IMG/VR virus record: IMGVR_UViG_3300025645_000356
Location: 1 to 28,012 of that record
Length of the DNA stretch: 28,012 bases
Direction: 5' to 3' (one strand)
Source of the DNA: a virus
The notes under the pieces were generated by a model, which saw only the letters and a program-made list of their open reading frames with translations, made no database searches and was not told where the DNA came from. The translations under genes and the position numbers were made by a program. Shown here piece after piece: positions 8,537 through 25,902 of this stretch (the stretch's first letter is position 1; each line of letters opens with the position of its first letter).

Positions 8537-8758
8537 TTAAGAGTTAGCTGCGATTGCAGCGTTTACCGCAGTCATGTCTTCTGTAGTCCAGAAGTCTTTA
8601 GCCACCATGATTTCGAGATGCTCTACGTTGCGTGACACAGTGTCAGCCCAATCAGCATCGTCCATGTCCTCTGGTTGCCCAGCGTTTAGCAAGTCAACAG
8701 AGTGACCCATTGCTGTGTAGTGCTGGGCAATCTCTTCTGCGGTTGGTGTATCCGTCAT
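8537..8758 (-). CDS. Small conserved fibre-adjacent protein
   Basis: A 73-aa acidic, helical protein. The core DMDDADWADTVSRNVEHLEI followed by MVAKDFWTTEDM resembles small proteins that follow tail-fibre genes in marine phages. No catalytic or metal-binding motif is visible. It has its own AAAGGAGAAAGA ribosome site and directly follows the tail fibre gene (28-nt gap). A chaperone or fibre cofactor role is only inferred from position. Confidence 0.5.
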   Translation of the reverse strand: MTDTPTAEEIAQHYTAMGHSVDLLNAGQPEDMDDADWADTVSRNVEHLEIMVAKDFWTTEDMTAVNAAIAANS

Positions 8759-8786
8759 GTCTTTCTCCTTTTCTGACTGGTTACGA

Positions 8787-11390
8787 TTAAGCGTTTTCTA
8801 GGGCAGTGATCCGTGTCTCTAGTGCAGTAATAGTTGCTTGTTGATCTTGGATTGCTTTGATGCAAAGTGATACCATATTGCCATATGCAAGAGCATCTGG
8901 TCTGCCTTCTACATCATATTGCACAAACTCTGTTAAGCCAGCATCATGGACTTCTTCTGCAATTAAACCGCCAAATACCCTGTCCCCATCATTGTTTCCT
9001 TTATAAGTAACTGGGCGAAGTGTCATAAGTTCTGATATGCCAAACGGCGCATCTTCAACACTATGCTTATACCTAATAGAGGAAGTAGACCTTCTATGTA
9101 GCCCATCGGAACGCACATTTATATTTGCGGCATCGGCAGTTGTATCATTATACACTCCCACCATTATGAATTGCCCAGATGGTGTTACACGCAATCTAGG
9201 ATTACCATCCCCATCCGACAGCACGATGTTGTTGCTTGAGGTGCGGATGTCCAAGCCGCCTTGGTTGCCGTTGTAGCTGCCAAGGATGGTGTTTCCCTCG
9301 CCCGATGTTATTAACTTACCAGCGTCTTTCCCGATGTAGGTATTGAAACTTGATGTTGAAGCGTTACCAGCAGCGTCTCCAATAAATGTATTAGACCTAC
9401 CAGTAGTATTACTATACCCCGCCTGATACCCCAAGGCAGTGTTGTTGCTTGCGGTGGTGTTGGAGAACAGTGCTTCACGACCCACTGCAACATTATATGC
9501 GCCTGTCGTATTGGAATATAGAGTACGATATGCGCCTACGGCAGTATTACTTTCGCCTGTTGTTGTGAATTTACCAGCCTCACGACCAACGAATAGTTGT
9601 GGCCCCGTATCGTTGTTATAACCAGCCTGATAACCAATCGCTGTAACCCCTCCGGCATTAGCATTGCTTTGCGTGTATGCAGCCTGATAACCAACAGCAG
9701 TGTTGTTGCTGGCGGTGGTGTTGGATTGTAAGGCATAATATCCAAGGGCCGTATTTGATGTACCAGAAGTGTTTTGATAAGCAGAGCCATAACCCAATGC
9801 GACATTGTTAGCAGCAGTGTTGGATTGTAAAGCATAATACCCCACAGCAGTGCTGTTGCTGGCTGTGGTGTTTGCAGCTAATGCGCTACGCCCAATAGCA
9901 ATATTATTGCTAGAAGTAGTGGCGACTTCTAGAGCAGCATAACCAATAGCAATATTATCATTGCCTGTAGTAAGCGTCTGCAAAGAGAAAGGTTGAAGGG
10001 CCAAGTTTCTTACACCCGTAGTAATAGAATTACCCGCTCGATGCCCAATACCTGTGTTCCAGGAACCCGTTGTAACATCAAGCAACGCTTGGTAGCCAAT
10101 GGCGGTGGTACCTGTCGCAGTGGTGTTCGCATATGCAGCTTGATACCCAACAGCAGTGTTGTTGCTGGCTGTGGTGTTGGAGTAGAGAGCCTCACGGCCA
10201 ATGGCTACTGATAAAACACCTGTAGTGTTGCTATATAATGCTTGAGAGCCAAAAGCGTCTACGTTGTGCGTTGAGTTATACCCTGCTTGATAGCCTACAG
10301 CCGTTGACTTATTAGCGTCACCCGTAGACGACATACTATATAAAGTCTGATACCCAACCGCTACGTTGTTGTTGGAGGTGGTGTTTGCTTGGAGTGCATC
10401 AACACCAACCGCTACGCTGTTACTGCCTGTAGTATTGCTGTCCATAGAGTCTTTACCTACAGATACATTTAAAGTGCCTGTAGTGTTAGCCGATAATGCT
10501 AAATAACCTAACGCAGTATTAGAAGCACCTGTGGTGTTAAGGTCTAAAGCATACGTGCCTAACGCTACGTTGTTACCTCCTGTACTGTTAGTGAATAAAG
10601 CTCTATACCCAACCGCAGTGTTTTGGCTTGCGGTGGTGTTGGAGACTAGTGCAGAAGCACCCATTGCAGTATTGTACTGTCCTGTGGTTGTCAGTGCCAA
10701 GGCATTATAACCAACCGCTACATTATAAGTGTCGCCAGTGGTATTGAGGTTTTGCAGTGCGCTTCTACCAACGGCAACATTTCGTGATGCTGTTGTGTTA
10801 AGCTGTAGTGCCACATCACCTATCGCCACATTGCGAGAGCCGGTTGTATTAGTATAAGCCGCTTGATAACCCACTGCTGTGTTGCTGCTTGCGGTGGTGT
10901 TGGAGAATAGTGCATTAGATCCAACAGATGTGTTTGATTGGCCCGTGCTGTTTGTATATAAAGCGGCTGTCCCCAACGCAACATTGTTTTGACCAGAAGT
11001 GTTTGCTGTCAGTGATTGTGTACCAATAGCAGTATTACTAATGCCACTAAGTGAGCCATCATCTAAGGCTTGATTACCCAACGCCACGTTGTTTGTACCA
11101 ACAGGATAGTTCCCATCAAGCTTGATCGTGCCGCCATCGACTGACACGTTGCCAGCTACAGTTAAACCGTCCGTGACGGCTGTGCCTGTTACGTCTACGC
11201 CTGTGGCAGTCGTCGCCAGCTTCGCGCTATCTGCATAAGACAACGTAGCGGCAGCAGTCTTACCGCCAATTGCATTTACAACCGAATCTAACGTATCAAG
11301 ATCAGTGTTGATCTTTTCGCCCCAAGTATCCTCGGATGCGCCGACCTCTGGCTTCGTTAAGCCATATGCAGTTGTGGTTGTGTCAGCCAT
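8787..11390 (-). CDS. Long tail fibre with beta-roll repeats and S74 auto-cleaving chaperone
   Basis: An 867-aa protein in three parts. Residues 1-95 (ending [20 protein letters not shown]) form a phage fibre attachment region starting [17 protein letters not shown]. Residues about 99-705 consist of about 17-residue repeats of the type [16 protein letters not shown], resembling the left-handed beta-roll repeats of trimeric adhesin heads; this would be the shaft. Residues 770-867 are an intramolecular chaperone of the peptidase S74 family. The SSIRYK segment supplies the expected Ser770/Lys775 pair, followed by [18 protein letters not shown] and a terminal coiled coil ([18 protein letters not shown]). 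In that family the domain trimerises the fibre and then cuts itself off. The protein is the likely host-binding fibre. Confidence 0.85.
9276..11096 (-). repeat. Intragenic array encoding about 17-residue beta-roll units
   Basis: Roughly 35 degenerate units of about 50 nt lie inside the fibre gene. Near-identical stretches recur, for example the codons for [10 protein letters not shown] and YSNTTAS. The DNA similarity between units makes the array prone to unequal recombination and so to length variation of the fibre shaft. Confidence 0.8.
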
Positions 11391-17356: not shown

Positions 17357-17387
17357 AAAAAGCCCGGCCACCGCGCCGGGCTTTTTT
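17357..17387. terminator. Bidirectional rho-independent terminator
   Basis: AAAAAGCCCGGC (17357-17368) and GCCGGGCTTTTT (17375-17386) form a perfect 12-bp arm pair with a 6-nt loop, with T-tracts on both strands. It lies between the plus-strand genes ending at 17335 and the minus-strand gene ending at 17386, whose stop codon overlaps the T-run. Confidence 0.9.
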
Positions 17388-17586
17388 AATGCACGGTTTC
17401 ACCCTCTGGGCTGCTCATTTCATGCAATTCAATTAGGGTTTCAGCCAGCCCTTGAAGCATCCGCTCGACTGGTACGCCAGCAGAAAGCTGCTCTTCAATG
17501 TGGTCAATCAGCTCACCTGTCACAATCTCTTGCGTCTCTGTATCCTCGCAATTGAGCATCATACGAAAATCAATCTGGAATGACAT
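17386..17586 (-). CDS. Small unknown helical protein with structured leader
   Basis: A 66-aa acidic protein (IDHIEEQLSAGVPVERMLQG followed by LAETLIELHEM). The pattern of two amphipathic helices is common for small phage regulators, but no family is recognised. It is the last gene of the leftward block 19139-17386 and ends in the bidirectional terminator. Its ATG at 17586 is only one base from a GC-rich arm that can be paired in two exclusive ways, so translation is probably regulated by RNA structure. Confidence 0.5.
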   Translation of the reverse strand: MSFQIDFRMMLNCEDTETQEIVTGELIDHIEEQLSAGVPVERMLQGLAETLIELHEMSSPEGETVH

Positions 17587-17587
17587 A

Positions 17588-17639
17588 GGCCCGGCCCTTT
17601 AAATATGCCCGGCGCATGGGTTGGGACAAGCGCCGGGCC
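17588..17639 (-). promoter_or_regulatory. Three-arm alternative hairpin leader before 17586 start
   Basis: Reading the minus strand, arm A (GGCCCGGCGC, 17639-17630) can pair with arm B (GCGCCGGGC, 17615-17607; 9 bp) or with arm C (GCCGGGCC, 17595-17588; 8 bp). Arm C lies one base before the start codon at 17586. Pairing A-B leaves the initiation region free; pairing A-C hides it. Confidence 0.55.
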
Positions 17640-17712
17640 AGTTTGGGCGCGACCTTGGGAGGAACGACGCGCCGTGCGCATTTATAGCCACACACAAGCC
17701 CAAAGCGCAAGT

Positions 17713-18054
17713 TTATGCGTCTTTGCCCGGTCTATCATCCTCCCCCGTCCCACGCTCCTCGTATGCAATGAGAAACATAAGGCAGCACGCTGCGTGCCAT
17801 AGGTGTGATACTTGCGTCTCACCATCAAGCCCATCAAATGCAAAATTGCGCGTCGCAGTCTTTCCACCCCACCAAGCCCAGAGATGACGCATAAGCGCGC
17901 CAAACACGCGGCCCCATCTCATACCCTTCTCCCAATTGCGTGCAGCGTATTTATCTGCGCCAAAGCCCAGCACTCGCGCCGTGCCAAATATAAACTCCGG
18001 CGCAACCAACTCGATTGGCTCTTTGCCTTCGTCATTTTTTTTTGCGTCGTTCAT
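17713..18054 (-). CDS. MazZ-like dATP/dGTP pyrophosphohydrolase (DUF5664 type)
   Basis: A 113-aa protein from the ATG at 18054 (MNDAKKNDEGKEPIELVAP); the longer ORF start at 18189 is inside the upstream gene and unlikely. The core pattern GADKYAARNWEKG...ALMRHLWAWWGG...DGETQVSHLWHAACCLMFL is the all-alpha NTP pyrophosphohydrolase type described for phage dATP/dGTP diphosphohydrolases, which cleave purine dNTPs to monophosphates. In some phages this works with PurZ to replace adenine by diaminopurine. No PurZ is in the window, so a general nucleotide-pool role is as likely. It overlaps the upstream gene by 23 bases through an A9 tract. Confidence 0.65.
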   Translation of the reverse strand: MNDAKKNDEGKEPIELVAPEFIFGTARVLGFGADKYAARNWEKGMRWGRVFGALMRHLWAWWGGKTATRNFAFDGLDGETQVSHLWHAACCLMFLIAYEERGTGEDDRPGKDA

Positions 18055-18304
18055 CCCCACCATTCTCCATATCAAACTTGCGCCGCAATATTGCATCACG
18101 CTCGGTTGCATTCCATCGCGGCAATGTCGGATCAAACCTGCGCCGATTGGCGAAGCCCTCAAGCTCTGCCAAATCCCGGCAAGCGTCAAGCCTCGATTTA
18201 AACCCCTGCAGCCGCTCCACCCCTTTGTGATAGCCTACAGGACGGACAATTGCCTCGCCCTTCTCAATCTTATGTCTGACCCATTTAGCCCAATCATATC
18301 CCAT
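18032..18304 (-). CDS. Unknown 90-aa basic protein, possible DNA-binding
   Basis: A 90-aa strongly basic, helical protein (WAKWVRHKIEKGEAIVRPVG; LQGFKSRLDACRDLAELEGF; ending DERRKKK). No family recognised. The start at 18304 has a GAGG site upstream. It sits directly after the iteron and hairpin block (18328-18486), and its basic character would allow it to bind that block, but this is only inference. The C-terminal Lys run is encoded by nine A residues (18043-18035) overlapping the next gene. Confidence 0.5.
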   Translation of the reverse strand: MGYDWAKWVRHKIEKGEAIVRPVGYHKGVERLQGFKSRLDACRDLAELEGFANRRRFDPTLPRWNATERDAILRRKFDMENGGDERRKKK

Positions 18305-18327
18305 ATATTAAACCTCACGTTTCTCGG

Positions 18328-18486
18328 TGTATGAATGTATTATTAATGTGTCTTTCAGACACATTCATACATTCATACAAAATACGCCCATTGTATGAAT
18401 TACTGTATTAATTTGTATTAATTGTACTAAACACACCACCAAACCCCTTGTTTATATGGCTCAGCAATTAATACACATTTAATACA
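18328..18486. repeat. TGTATKAAT iteron array with 21-bp composite stem-loop
   Basis: Seven perfect copies and one single-mismatch copy of a 9-mer TGTAT(G/T)AAT lie in this AT-rich non-coding block: forward at 18328, 18392, 18404 and 18414; reverse at 18363-18371, 18371-18379, 18467-18475 and 18478-18486 (one mismatch). The 12-bp arms GTATGAATGTAT (18329-18340) and ATACATTCATAC (18367-18378) enclose a second hairpin, AATGTGTCT/AGACACATT (18345-18353, 18357-18365; loop TTC). Several spacings are 10-12 bp. The layout resembles a replication origin or a cooperative repressor operator. No gene is present between 18305 and 18501. Confidence 0.75.
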
Positions 18487-18501
18487 CCCACCCCAAACCG
18501 C

Positions 18502-18975
18502 TCAAACCATATTTTCTGCCGCGTACAGACAAAGCAAGGCCGCTTCTGCCCTTCCATCGTGCTTGGCCAGCTTGAACAAGTCACTTTCTTGCGGAAAGCG
18601 ATCCATTGCAATCGCTCGGCTGGCGTTTTTATCTGACCCAATAAGCCCAAAATATTTCTTCCATTTTGCTGGCGTCACATATTGCACCGGCAGTTTGTTT
18701 GCCGCGACTGCCATTTGCAATTGCCCAAAGCCTTGGCCGAAGCGAAAGACTGCGCTTGAGTTTTGGCCGGGTCTGGACGCGACTTGCTCAATTATGCACA
18801 TGCACTTTTCGTCGGCCTCGTTTTCGAACACGTCCAGCAGGGAATGCAGATTTAAAATTGACTTACCTTTTGGATTTTTCATTACCGGCATATCATGAAC
18901 CTCAAGCCTACCCGTGTCGGTCCAATATAACGCGACTGCCCCGGTGAAGCCCGGATCGCATCCGTATATGAGCAT
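18502..18975 (-). CDS. RuvC-like crossover junction resolvase
   Basis: A 157-aa protein from the ATG at 18975, which overlaps the previous stop (TGATG); the TTG one codon upstream is less likely. It begins LIYGCDPGFTGAVAL, the RuvC/RNase H-like first strand with catalytic Asp7, followed by IIEQVASRPGQNSS (Glu63) and a C-terminal AKHDGRAEAALL segment providing the remaining acidic residues (Asp140, Glu144). The length fits phage RuvC-like resolvases. It would cut Holliday junctions or branched DNA before packaging. It is co-translated with the upstream RHH gene and lies next to the iteron array. Confidence 0.75.
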   Translation of the reverse strand: MLIYGCDPGFTGAVALYWTDTGRLEVHDMPVMKNPKGKSILNLHSLLDVFENEADEKCMCIIEQVASRPGQNSSAVFRFGQGFGQLQMAVAANKLPVQYVTPAKWKKYFGLIGSDKNASRAIAMDRFPQESDLFKLAKHDGRAEAALLCLYAAENMV

Positions 18976-19139
18976 CAATCAGCCCTCGGCTGCTGTACAT
19001 GCTCCACAATTGTTGCCGCCTTTTCCAGTGCTGCGCTCCGGCAGAACGCGCTAAAAGATAGCCCTGACCTGCGCGCGGCTTCTGTAATTATGCGGTCATA
19101 TTCTTCCGCGAAATTGATTAGGCGCTTCTTATCCGACAT
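18975..19139 (-). CDS. 53-aa ribbon-helix-helix (RHH) DNA-binding protein
   Basis: A short ORF not apparent as a long frame: MSDKKRLINFAEEYDRIITE followed by AARRSGLSFSAFCRSAALEK. The strand RLINFA, helix EEYDRIITEAARRSG, turn LS, helix FSAFCRSAALEKAA pattern is that of Arc/MetJ-type or DUF1778-like proteins. Such proteins bind short tandem repeats as dimers. No toxin partner gene is adjacent, so an antitoxin function is unlikely and a transcription regulator more so. It overlaps the resolvase gene as TGATG. It is the first gene of the leftward block and could regulate the divergent region 19140-19270. Confidence 0.65.
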   Translation of the reverse strand: MSDKKRLINFAEEYDRIITEAARRSGLSFSAFCRSAALEKAATIVEHVQQPRAD

Positions 19140-19270
19140 GGCTTTAACTCCTCTTGTGTCTGTTTTCTTTATATATGTTTAAAATATAGGGAGCCAGTGA
19201 AAAATATACTTGCGCATGTGTTTTTTATATGCAAATACTGGTGGCACAACACAAACATGGAGTTTAACAA
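19140..19270. promoter_or_regulatory. Divergent promoter region between two early blocks
   Basis: The 131 nt between the ATG at 19139 (minus) and that at 19271 (plus) are AT-rich. For the plus strand a TTGCGC (19210-19215) with AATACT (19234-19239) at an 18-nt spacing is a weak -35/-10 candidate. TTATATATGTTTAAAATATAG (19170-19190) could provide the minus-strand -10. The plus-strand sequence TTGC-N13-ATATGC (19210-19232) recurs at 21870-21892. Confidence 0.4.
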
Positions 19271-19780
19271 ATGACAAACGATACCAAACCCACCGCAGAG
19301 CAAGTTAAATTTTGGGAAGGCGTCAAGCAAAATATGCTTGACCGCGCTGATGTTGCCTCACATTTCACCGATTTGGAACGCAGTAGTTTGCGCGAATTGG
19401 GCTGGGCGTCAATGTGCATTGGCGAGTCACGTTATGCCTTAAAGCACGCAAAATCGCAAAAAGATTTAAACAATTTATTTTCCGTTGACCATTTCGGACA
19501 AGTCATAGTCGCAAATCACATCTTGGTTGAGGAGAATTGTTGGGGCAAGTCAGAAAACGATGACAAGCGCCAGATTGGAAAGTTGTGCGCTGAATTGGCC
19601 TTGGCTATTCAGGATGATTTAAGCGAGGATGGGGATAATTTATCCATCACTAATATAAAACGCTTTAGCCACCTTTGGTCCCTCATCCATAACCTTGAGC
19701 GCACCAAGCCAAACAGTCACCAAATGGAGCGCTTTGCCGAGCATGGCATCACATGGGAGGGCGAAGTCGATGAGCATTAA
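19271..19780 (+). CDS. Unknown early protein (169 aa)
   Basis: A 169-aa acidic helical protein with no recognised family. The core contains LGWASMCIGESRYALKHAKS and a His/Asn-rich middle, then FSHLWSLIHNLERTKPNSHQ near the C-terminus. The ATG at 19271 is preceded by ATGGAG (weak ribosome site). Its end overlaps the start of the next gene by 11 bases, and it opens the rightward early block. A host take-over function would fit the location but has no direct sequence support. Confidence 0.5.
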   Translation: MTNDTKPTAEQVKFWEGVKQNMLDRADVASHFTDLERSSLRELGWASMCIGESRYALKHAKSQKDLNNLFSVDHFGQVIVANHILVEENCWGKSENDDKRQIGKLCAELALAIQDDLSEDGDNLSITNIKRFSHLWSLIHNLERTKPNSHQMERFAEHGITWEGEVDEH

Positions 19781-20048
19781 AATTGGATTGCCCGACGTTA
19801 CGTTTAATGCTTTGTGCAGGATCACAGAGATTGACCGCGAGTTTATTGGCTCGCCGGATTATATGGGTGTGGCTCAGTTCTGGGACTGGTCACACCCGCA
19901 GAACACGCGATTGAGCCGTGCATCTGTTTCAGCCAGGCGCAAGATACACGCAGCGCTTGTGAGGGATGGGCTTGACTTGAATGGCGACACAGGCATTCAC
20001 CGCTCAATCATTAGCATTGTGCTAGAGAAAGAGGAGCAAGGGTTATGA
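19770..20048 (+). CDS. Unknown small early protein (92 aa)
   Basis: A 92-aa protein from the ATG at 19770 (MSIKIGLPDVTFNAL); the longer in-frame ORF to 19695 lies within the previous gene and lacks a ribosome site. The middle, YMGVAQFWDWSHPQNTRLSR, then SVSARRKIHAALVRDGLDLN, is Trp- and Arg-rich; no family recognised. It overlaps both neighbours (19770-19780 and 20045-20048), indicating coupled translation. Confidence 0.45.
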   Translation: MSIKIGLPDVTFNALCRITEIDREFIGSPDYMGVAQFWDWSHPQNTRLSRASVSARRKIHAALVRDGLDLNGDTGIHRSIISIVLEKEEQGL

Positions 20049-20302
20049 ATGAACGCCAGAAGCAAATTGCCGAATGCACCAAGGATTTCTTGGTTTCCCT
20101 TCCTAACAACATGGAGGGCATCGACTTAGGCGCTGTCGTCTGCACGATATTCGAGGGATTCGATCTTGACCATGAAGAACGCGCTCAAATTTGCGAGGGT
20201 GTCGTAGATGTCATGCTTGAGGTTGAAATGCGCCGCGATGAGCGCGCAGCTCAAGCCGCTGACGCTGTGCTTGCGCGAGCTGCTGCGAAGGCTCGCAAGT
20301 GA
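20045..20302 (+). CDS. Unknown small acidic protein (85 aa)
   Basis: An 85-aa, strongly acidic protein (GIDLGAVVCTIFEGFDLDHE), ending in an Ala/Arg-rich helix (AAQAADAVLARAAAKARK). It starts on an ATGA overlap with the preceding gene. No motif recognised. Its stop codon is immediately followed by a compact structured element (20304-20418), so the mRNA 3' end or the next gene's expression may be controlled there. Confidence 0.45.
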   Translation: MNERQKQIAECTKDFLVSLPNNMEGIDLGAVVCTIFEGFDLDHEERAQICEGVVDVMLEVEMRRDERAAQAADAVLARAAAKARK

Positions 20303-23994: not shown

Positions 23995-25902
23995 ATGTTA
24001 TCCGATCAGAACAGAGAAAGCAAGTTTCCAGCCGCTCGCTGGTCGGAGTTTGGCAACACAATCATACGCAACCTTGAGCTGAAAAAGACTGCTCAGGGCG
24101 AGTATCATGGACCATGCCCATCCTGCGCTGGCACAGACAGGTTTTGGATTAAAGAGTTTCAAGGCGAGGTCATGGTTCATTGCCGCAAGTGCAATGACTA
24201 TAAGGCCATCAAGGACAGGCTGCGCGATATGTCATTGTGGCCACAGCCCGGACATACGCCTACACTGGAGGTAGCAAGAGTTGACATTGATTGGCCAGAG
24301 CGTGACGCTATGAGCGACCACCCGTACCTCGAAAAGAAAAAGATAAAACTACACAACGCCAAGATTGACGGCGACACGCTAACCATCCCAATCATTGACG
24401 TGAAGGGCAGGCGCGTTGGCGCGCAGTTTATTGATGCTGACGGCAAGAAAAAGTTTTCCTACCAGCTGCCCGTGATTGGCAACTTTAGCGTGATTGGCGG
24501 CCCCATTCGTGAGTTTGCATATGTTGCAGAGGGCTGGGCAACAGCCGCGACTGTGCATGAGGCCACGGGCAAGCCATGCGTGTTCGCTCTAAATGCAGGC
24601 AACATTTTGGCCGTGATTGACAACCTGCAACAAGCCAAGCCAGAGGCAGAGCTTGTGATTGCTGGCGACAATGACGATGCCGGGCGCAAGGAGTGCGAGC
24701 GCGCATTCTCTGAGCTGGGCGTTGAGTACATCCTGCCCGACATGGAGGGTTGGGATTACTCGGACGTGTGGGTGAACCAAGGTCCGGCAGCGGCGAAGAA
24801 AGCATTGACCGTGCAGAGCGTCATGGATCAAATCTTCATGCCGGACGAGGCCATTCCTCAGCTCAGCCGCAACTATCTCGTGAAGGGCTGGCTTGGCGAG
24901 GGTCAAATGTCTGTAATTTACGGACCATCAAATGTGGGCAAATCGTTCTTCGCCCTTGATCTTGCATGGCACATTGCTTGCGGTGAGGAGTGGAATGGCC
25001 ACAAGGTTATTGGCGGCTCTGTTTTATACCTCGCAACCGAGGGCGGCATGGCGTTCCACAATCGCGTTGTCGCGCTGAAGAAAAAATACCCAGAGCATAA
25101 GAATGTGAAGCTGGCTGTGCGCCCGGCCCCGGTCAACTTGCTTGACGGCGAAGTTGACATGGCCGTGCTTGAGAAGCTGTGCCGTGAGGTGTCGAAGAAA
25201 CACGGTCAGGTGAAGTGCATATTTGTTGACACGCTCAGCCGCTCAATGGCTGGCGGCAATGAAAACTCGCCAGAGGACATGACAAAGTTTATAGGCAACT
25301 GCGATAAGCTGCGCGAGATTACAAGCGCACACCTGGACGTGGTTCACCACTCCGGCAAGGATAAAGCCGCTGGCGCGCGTGGCCACTCAAGTCTACGCGC
25401 TGCGACCGACACAGAGATTGAGCTTGATTACGATGAGAACACTGGCCTGCGCACGGCAAAGGCCACGAAACAGCGTGACATGGAAACGGGCGTTATATTC
25501 CAGTTTAAGTTGAACGTCATCGAGCTTGGCGTTGATGAGGACGGTGACAGCGTTACGACTTGTACCGTTGTGCAGGCTACTGAGAGCGAGATTGAAGAGG
25601 CCAACAAGCCACGCATCAAGGGCAAGAACCAAGTCCTAATCCGCAAGGTATTCACGCAGCTGCGCGGTGAGGGCGTCGGGCAACCAAACCCCGGAGGGGT
25701 TGGGTGGCCAGAGCCGAGAACATATTGGGTTATCTCTGAAGAGACGCTGAAAGACCACTTCATCGGCAAGGTGTCCTCAGCCGCAAATCCGCGCTCAACA
25801 TATAAGCAAGCTGTAGACGCGCTTATTGGCGCTGGTCACATGGTCATAAACGATGGCCATGTGTGGTTCGCTGACAACGAAGGCAAATGCAAGAACGTAT
25901 AA
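23995..25902 (+). CDS. Bifunctional primase-helicase (zinc, Toprim, RecA-like ATPase)
   Basis: A 635-aa protein. An N-terminal zinc site (Cys41, Cys44, Cys63, Cys66: CPSC...CRKC) is followed by the Toprim fold (VAEGWATAAT with Glu179; IAGDNDDAGRKECERA with Asp225/227/228), which is the catalytic core of DNA primase. Residues 300-470 form a RepA/DnaB-like ATPase: Walker A YGPSNVGKSFF (309-319), Walker B CIFVDTLSR (408-416), then DVVHHSGKD and SSLRAATDTEIELDY. It would unwind the fork and lay down primers, as T7 gp4 does. The C-terminal 100 residues may be a further HTH-like region (SEETLKDHFIGKV; YKQAVDALIGAGHMVI). Start: ATG at 23995. Confidence 0.9.
   Translation: MLSDQNRESKFPAARWSEFGNTIIRNLELKKTAQGEYHGPCPSCAGTDRFWIKEFQGEVMVHCRKCNDYKAIKDRLRDMSLWPQPGHTPTLEVARVDIDWPERDAMSDHPYLEKKKIKLHNAKIDGDTLTIPIIDVKGRRVGAQFIDADGKKKFSYQLPVIGNFSVIGGPIREFAYVAEGWATAATVHEATGKPCVFALNAGNILAVIDNLQQAKPEAELVIAGDNDDAGRKECERAFSELGVEYILPDMEGWDYSDVWVNQGPAAAKKALTVQSVMDQIFMPDEAIPQLSRNYLVKGWLGEGQMSVIYGPSNVGKSFFALDLAWHIACGEEWNGHKVIGGSVLYLATEGGMAFHNRVVALKKKYPEHKNVKLAVRPAPVNLLDGEVDMAVLEKLCREVSKKHGQVKCIFVDTLSRSMAGGNENSPEDMTKFIGNCDKLREITSAHLDVVHHSGKDKAAGARGHSSLRAATDTEIELDYDENTGLRTAKATKQRDMETGVIFQFKLNVIELGVDEDGDSVTTCTVVQATESEIEEANKPRIKGKNQVLIRKVFTQLRGEGVGQPNPGGVGWPEPRTYWVISEETLKDHFIGKVSSAANPRSTYKQAVDALIGAGHMVINDGHVWFADNEGKCKNV

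Follow-up and report, generated by a model that had tools for sequence, protein, structure and literature searches.

In the IncQ plasmid RSF1010 the RepA helicase, the RepB' primase and the iteron binder RepC are separate proteins; the alpha protein of phage P4 combines primase, helicase and origin binding in one protein, with iterons and with a second site, crr, that is also needed. It is a long-standing question how the origin sequence of a replicon can change while its initiator, which must read this sequence, keeps working. The C-terminal domains of SaPI Rep and of Cch2 bind iterons at known or putative origins (PMC7581432). In geminiviruses, closely related members have different iterons, each fitting its cognate Rep (PMC12548392); this Rep is a rolling-circle endonuclease of ssDNA viruses and is unrelated to the primase-helicase discussed here.

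The locus described here belongs to a marine phage and comes from a linear IMG/VR record, 28,012 bases in length, which was analyzed over its whole length (the window). As for SaPI Rep and the SCCmec protein Cch2, a helicase is predicted, from the sequences and from a structure model, to read short repeats at its own origin through a C-terminal DNA-binding domain, the match between this domain and the iterons being seen in the covariation and in the model. The location directly downstream of the helicase gene is also shared with these systems in most of the relatives found here, but in the clade of the window the array is, unlike in SaPI, 5.5 kb upstream of the helicase gene. The helicase families are different: SaPI Rep and Cch2 have DUF927 and D5/Primase_Cterm domains, whereas Pfam here gives AAA_25 and Toprim, so that a RepA-type ring with RecA fold is joined to a Toprim primase. 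A conserved hairpin tip inside the array is likewise a feature of the present system and not of the SaPI Rep/Cch2 origins. By analogy, the system would work like SaPI Rep and Cch2, but outside their helicase families. The RepA-type hexameric helicase is a property shared with RSF1010, but unlike in that plasmid all three roles are apparently present in one chain, and the coupling is to the helicase polypeptide itself. P4 alpha and the present protein are both single multi-role proteins associated with iterons, with different primase and helicase folds.

The iteron array and its composite hairpin

The features of the array region are as follows.

18328..18486, no strand: iteron array, seven exact copies of TGTATKAAT and one near-copy, four per orientation; proposed replication origin
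18478..18486, minus strand: eighth iteron, near-perfect, TGTATTAAA, identified from the sequence
18328..18379, no strand: composite hairpin, 13-bp iteron-built outer stem and 9-bp inner stem, loop TTC (GAA on the opposite strand)
18032..18304, minus strand: p90, gene of a 90-aa protein, located after the array in relatives; conserved neighborhood, not the specificity determinant

The exact copies start at 18328, 18392, 18404 and 18414 on the plus strand and at 18363, 18371 and 18467 on the minus strand. Since the near-copy is also on the minus strand, the count of the original prediction, seven perfect and one near-perfect 9-mers with four in each orientation, is correct. All seven exact matches of the 28-kb contig are within 18328-18475, where 0.38 matches are expected in the contig and none is found elsewhere; seven copies are reached in none of 100 shuffles (the whole record gives the same outcome) and in none of 2000 local dinucleotide shuffles. 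The repeats are therefore clustered and absent elsewhere, as expected for an iteron origin.

In the outer stem, 18328-18340 pairs with 18367-18379 over 13 bp with 100% complementarity, one base pair more than the 12 bp originally proposed, and the enclosed perfect 9-bp hairpin is found as described (18345-18353 pairing with 18357-18365 across a 3-nt loop). The DNA folding energy is -15.7 to -16.1 kcal/mol, compared with -4.0 to -4.6 kcal/mol in shuffles. The AT-rich and non-coding character of the array is also confirmed: its AT content is 71%, compared with 50% for the contig, the 160-nt segment with the highest AT content in the contig begins near 18330, and the array is intergenic, between ruvC (18502-18978, minus strand) and p90. 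An AT-rich region within the repeats, here the maximum of the contig, is also a property of iteron origins.

Conserved layout and replaced repeats in relatives

Relatives were collected via RuvC, p90 and the hairpin itself. Upstream of p90 they have bidirectional repeats together with a hairpin whose stem contains the repeat, whereas the repeat sequence changes by lineage; the hairpin is usually tipped by CCTWWAGG. In close relatives with shared ruvC and p90 flanks, two types are found, T1 (TGTATKAAT, as in the window) and T2 (ATCATAATT), and the T2 repeat is restricted to the array locus in the T2 contigs checked, as is the T1 repeat in the window. Other relatives have AATGTTAT, AATGGTAGT, or GTGCA-, GCGCTTCAC-, TTGGGACAG- and GGTACGC-like repeats, and GATACTAAT is seen among further RuvC relatives. 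Most sister arrays have CCTTTAGG or CCTATAGG at the hairpin tip; the tip of the window, TCTTTCAGA, deviates from this, the sister T1 arrays having CCTTTAGG. The copies are confined to this locus, and the relatives keep the layout and swap the repeat.

T1 and T2 occur in otherwise near-identical, freely recombining phages. The genes orf66, ruvC, orf169 and orf85 (window 17386-20302) each occur as clearly distinct alleles, and these are found in new combinations from one close relative to the next, which is a sign of frequent recombination.

The repeat type follows the recognition helix of the primase-helicase

The residues that separate T1 from T2 phages are in the following protein.

23995..25902, plus strand: 635-aa primase-helicase with Zn ribbon, Toprim, RepA-type RecA-fold helicase (AAA_25) and C-terminal winged helix (Pfam, PHROGs, Foldseek, covariation)
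25624..25869, plus strand: C-terminal winged-helix domain of the primase-helicase (AlphaFold2 domain model)
25774..25800, plus strand: putative specificity determinant, residues 594-602 (SSAANPRST), including Arg600, separating T1 from T2 phages

Among the 24 window genes compared, a cluster of type-separating residues is found in the primase-helicase only, at residues 594-602, which are SSAANPRST in T1 and TTASNKSQV in T2. At the DNA level the difference between the helix types is concentrated in about 11 codons. In the AlphaFold2 model of the winged-helix domain alone (H-E-H-H-E-E, mean pLDDT 93.3), these residues form the turn before the recognition helix and its first turn, the helix starting at Pro599. 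A 350-residue AlphaFold2 model (mean pLDDT 85.6) has the RecA-fold domain followed by the winged helix. The helicase domain is nearest to RSF1010 RepA in fold and sequence, this being the best Foldseek match and the closest solved structure; when only the winged helix was compared with PDB folds, generic winged-helix domains were obtained, none below E 0.03.

Helix and array are concordant in all 11 close-relative contigs that carry both, the recognition helix being about 7.3 kb from the array in the clade of the window. On a tree of the rest of the protein, five changes of helix type are needed, of which at least four are forced by well-supported branches. An independent-pairs test in the closest group, for which only three pairs are available, gives agreement in 3/3 (p 0.25). 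The ruvC gene ends 15 bp from the array, and its alleles occur in all four combinations with the array type, so that physical linkage fails to explain the match between helix and array. Near-identical phages have thus switched repeat and helix together several times, which is a natural experiment.

Other proteins do not show such a relationship. The original prediction named the RHH protein (54 aa, not the 53 aa given there) and the 90-aa protein as candidates for binding the array, and listed RuvC with them as flanking it; the primase-helicase was not mentioned there. No residue of RuvC tracks the repeat type, and no other module gene has separating residues. The same holds for the 254-aa HTH protein (22 versus 11 sequences, the helix type serving as proxy for the array type). 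Single scattered columns are seen at mazG position 83, which separates the types incompletely, and at position 165 of the HTH protein, in both cases with only two sequences of one type. The orf85 alleles have a weak association with the array type (p 0.02, uncorrected), with no separating residue.

A second group (L097-L119), in which the array is just downstream of the helicase gene, is in agreement with these observations. Its 23 contigs have one of two array types, which in every case match W versus N/S at one residue, and this residue, which is at the position homologous to Arg600, is the only one of the 28 variable columns of the helicase half that separates the types. With the array next to the gene in this group, linkage may play a part, but there is no reason why linkage should single out the Arg600 position. 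One residue position therefore accompanies the switch in two separate groups, and the joint switches together with this position make it possible to test directly by which rule the repeat is recognized and why switching occurs. It is possible to speculate that switching avoids interference or replication theft by co-infecting phages or satellites.

Arg at position 600 accompanies TGTATNAA in the clade of the window and also in lineages down to 56-62% identity, namely L131, L262 and L269 (73-74%), L276-L278 (67%) and L285 (56%), of which L262 and L269 additionally carry TGTAGGAA. In the cultured phages CRP-831 and CRP-821 (62%), Arg is found with TGTATAAA in an array directly downstream of the helicase gene, and the related CRP-811 and CRP-823 have Asp with ACTACAAA. 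In the records of CRP-831 and CRP-811 the array is at about 3.9 and 4.5 kb, next to the helicase gene. In a text search, the roseophage paper (PMC12629253) mentions no iterons or repeats and has nothing on a replication origin.

Arrays beside helicase homologues in phages and bacterial genomes

A search of bacterial genomes with the aligned helicase half gave 78 relatives, and the 72 distinct ones were scored for a bidirectional 7-mer with at least five copies within 350 nt downstream of the gene. Such an array is present for 35 of the 72 homologues, compared with 0.76% of 2381 background windows from these loci and 0/1440 shuffles; at this threshold roughly every second homologue is without an array. 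The CCTWWAGG palindrome, usually at a hairpin tip, is found for 24/72 homologues, compared with 0.7% of the background. Arrays with hairpins span Proteobacteria to Mycobacterium, and the CCTWWAGG tip is retained inside arrays with wholly different repeats (L286-L363, L364-L368). This tip is a candidate for a common priming or helicase-loading site; a search for the hairpin tip sequences found nothing relevant in the literature covered.

Among named phages, an array is present in five of the eight tested, and Rhizobium phage 16-3 has at least 12 copies of CGTGACA. The array is directly downstream of the helicase gene in the cultured roseophages, in Rhizobium phage 16-3 and in many prophages. 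The more distant helicases of BFK20, Vibrio 1.210.O and Caulobacter GB2A have no array. In a group with NPKTS or NPKTT in the helix (L228-L243, L268), neither array nor p90 is seen in the contigs, which are fragments of up to 25.7 kb; a different small gene is present downstream of the helicase gene in this group.

These data make it a somewhat better than even proposition that a widespread new class of phage replicon is present, in which a single protein is primase, RepA-type helicase and reader of the origin, acting at a hairpin-centered array. That the repeat and a few recognition-helix residues are replaced wholesale together within this class, giving close relatives separate origin-specificity types, with the CCTWWAGG tip as common loading or priming site from Proteobacteria to Mycobacterium, is favored to the same slight degree. 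With this finding, origins can be assigned for numerous phages and prophages, among them the long-studied Rhizobium phage 16-3 and the newly cultured roseophages.

Function of the array

The array is interpreted as the replication origin of the phage, with iterons that a self-loading primase-helicase would recognize, with a probability of roughly 0.87. An iteron cluster recognized by the winged helix of such a protein has the appearance of a self-loading initiator's origin, for which SaPI Rep and Cch2 are the characterized precedents. Since iterons and recognition helix change jointly, close relatives would belong to different origin-specificity types. The 635-aa primase-helicase is proposed to be the initiator, and it is very probable that its winged helix reads the array directly, the covariation with the recognition helix being strong but indirect. 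The comparisons described above establish that the array exists, that relatives keep its layout and that its repeat sequence is coupled to the recognition helix; we infer that the protein binds the array directly, that the helicase is loaded and primes at the hairpin, and that replication starts at the array. In such a mechanism, several protomers of the hexameric primase-helicase would bind the 9-bp iterons via their C-terminal winged helices, and the bound protein would melt or extrude the AT-rich DNA and the hairpin. The RepA-type ring could then be loaded onto the strands by the protein itself, with no separate loader, after which the Toprim domain would prime and a host polymerase would extend. 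The GC skew of the contig follows the gene strand and turns at the divergent promoter near 19150, not at the array.

It is also conceivable, although improbable, that the array is an operator through which the primase-helicase or another phage regulator controls p90 and the downstream genes, with replication starting elsewhere. The array is indeed upstream of p90, in the same orientation, with the hairpin ending about 20-30 nt before the p90 start codon, and clustered sites in both orientations fit operators as well as origins. However, the protein coupled to the array is a helicase-primase and not a repressor, and the RHH, the 254-aa HTH protein and p90 do not follow the array type; the array of the CRP phages and of the prophages follows the helicase gene, whichever gene is next, and the hairpin tip is conserved while the repeats vary.

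Binding of the array by the RHH or the 90-aa protein, as in the original prediction, has very little probability. Both genes are nearby and the RHH is NikA-like, but RHH proteins that are 100% identical occur in phages with two unrelated repeats, and separating residues are absent from the RHH (21 versus 12 sequences) and from p90 (22 versus 12 sequences), p90 of the second group also having no separating column. The origin reading of that prediction is retained on the conserved layout, the restriction of the copies to this locus and the covariation with the helix, with a different protein as the reader. Equally hard to sustain is a role of nucleic-acid pairing alone, for instance through alternative pairings within an mRNA or a single strand, in which no protein reads the repeats and every self-complementary sequence would serve. 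The hairpin is strong, and the repeat sequence varies freely while complementarity is kept, as pairing would require, but the coupling to a recognition helix 7 kb away would be left unexplained, as would the fact that Arg600 and TGTAT are found together again in distant phages, and an Rfam search of the window matched no family.

Additional observations

The 54-aa NikA-like RHH (window 18975-19270) adjoins the divergent promoter region and likely regulates early genes rather than the array. In the tail structural region (8543-11206), pieces have about 92% identity with Roseobacter phage CRP-7, whose 58-kb genome has no further DNA-level match to this contig. The small p90 protein carries the motif ELxGFANRR, matches neither Pfam nor PHROGs, and is possibly an accessory replication factor. 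Its gene follows the array in many lineages (L068-L127, L368), and in the cultured phage CRP-406 it is also downstream of the array.
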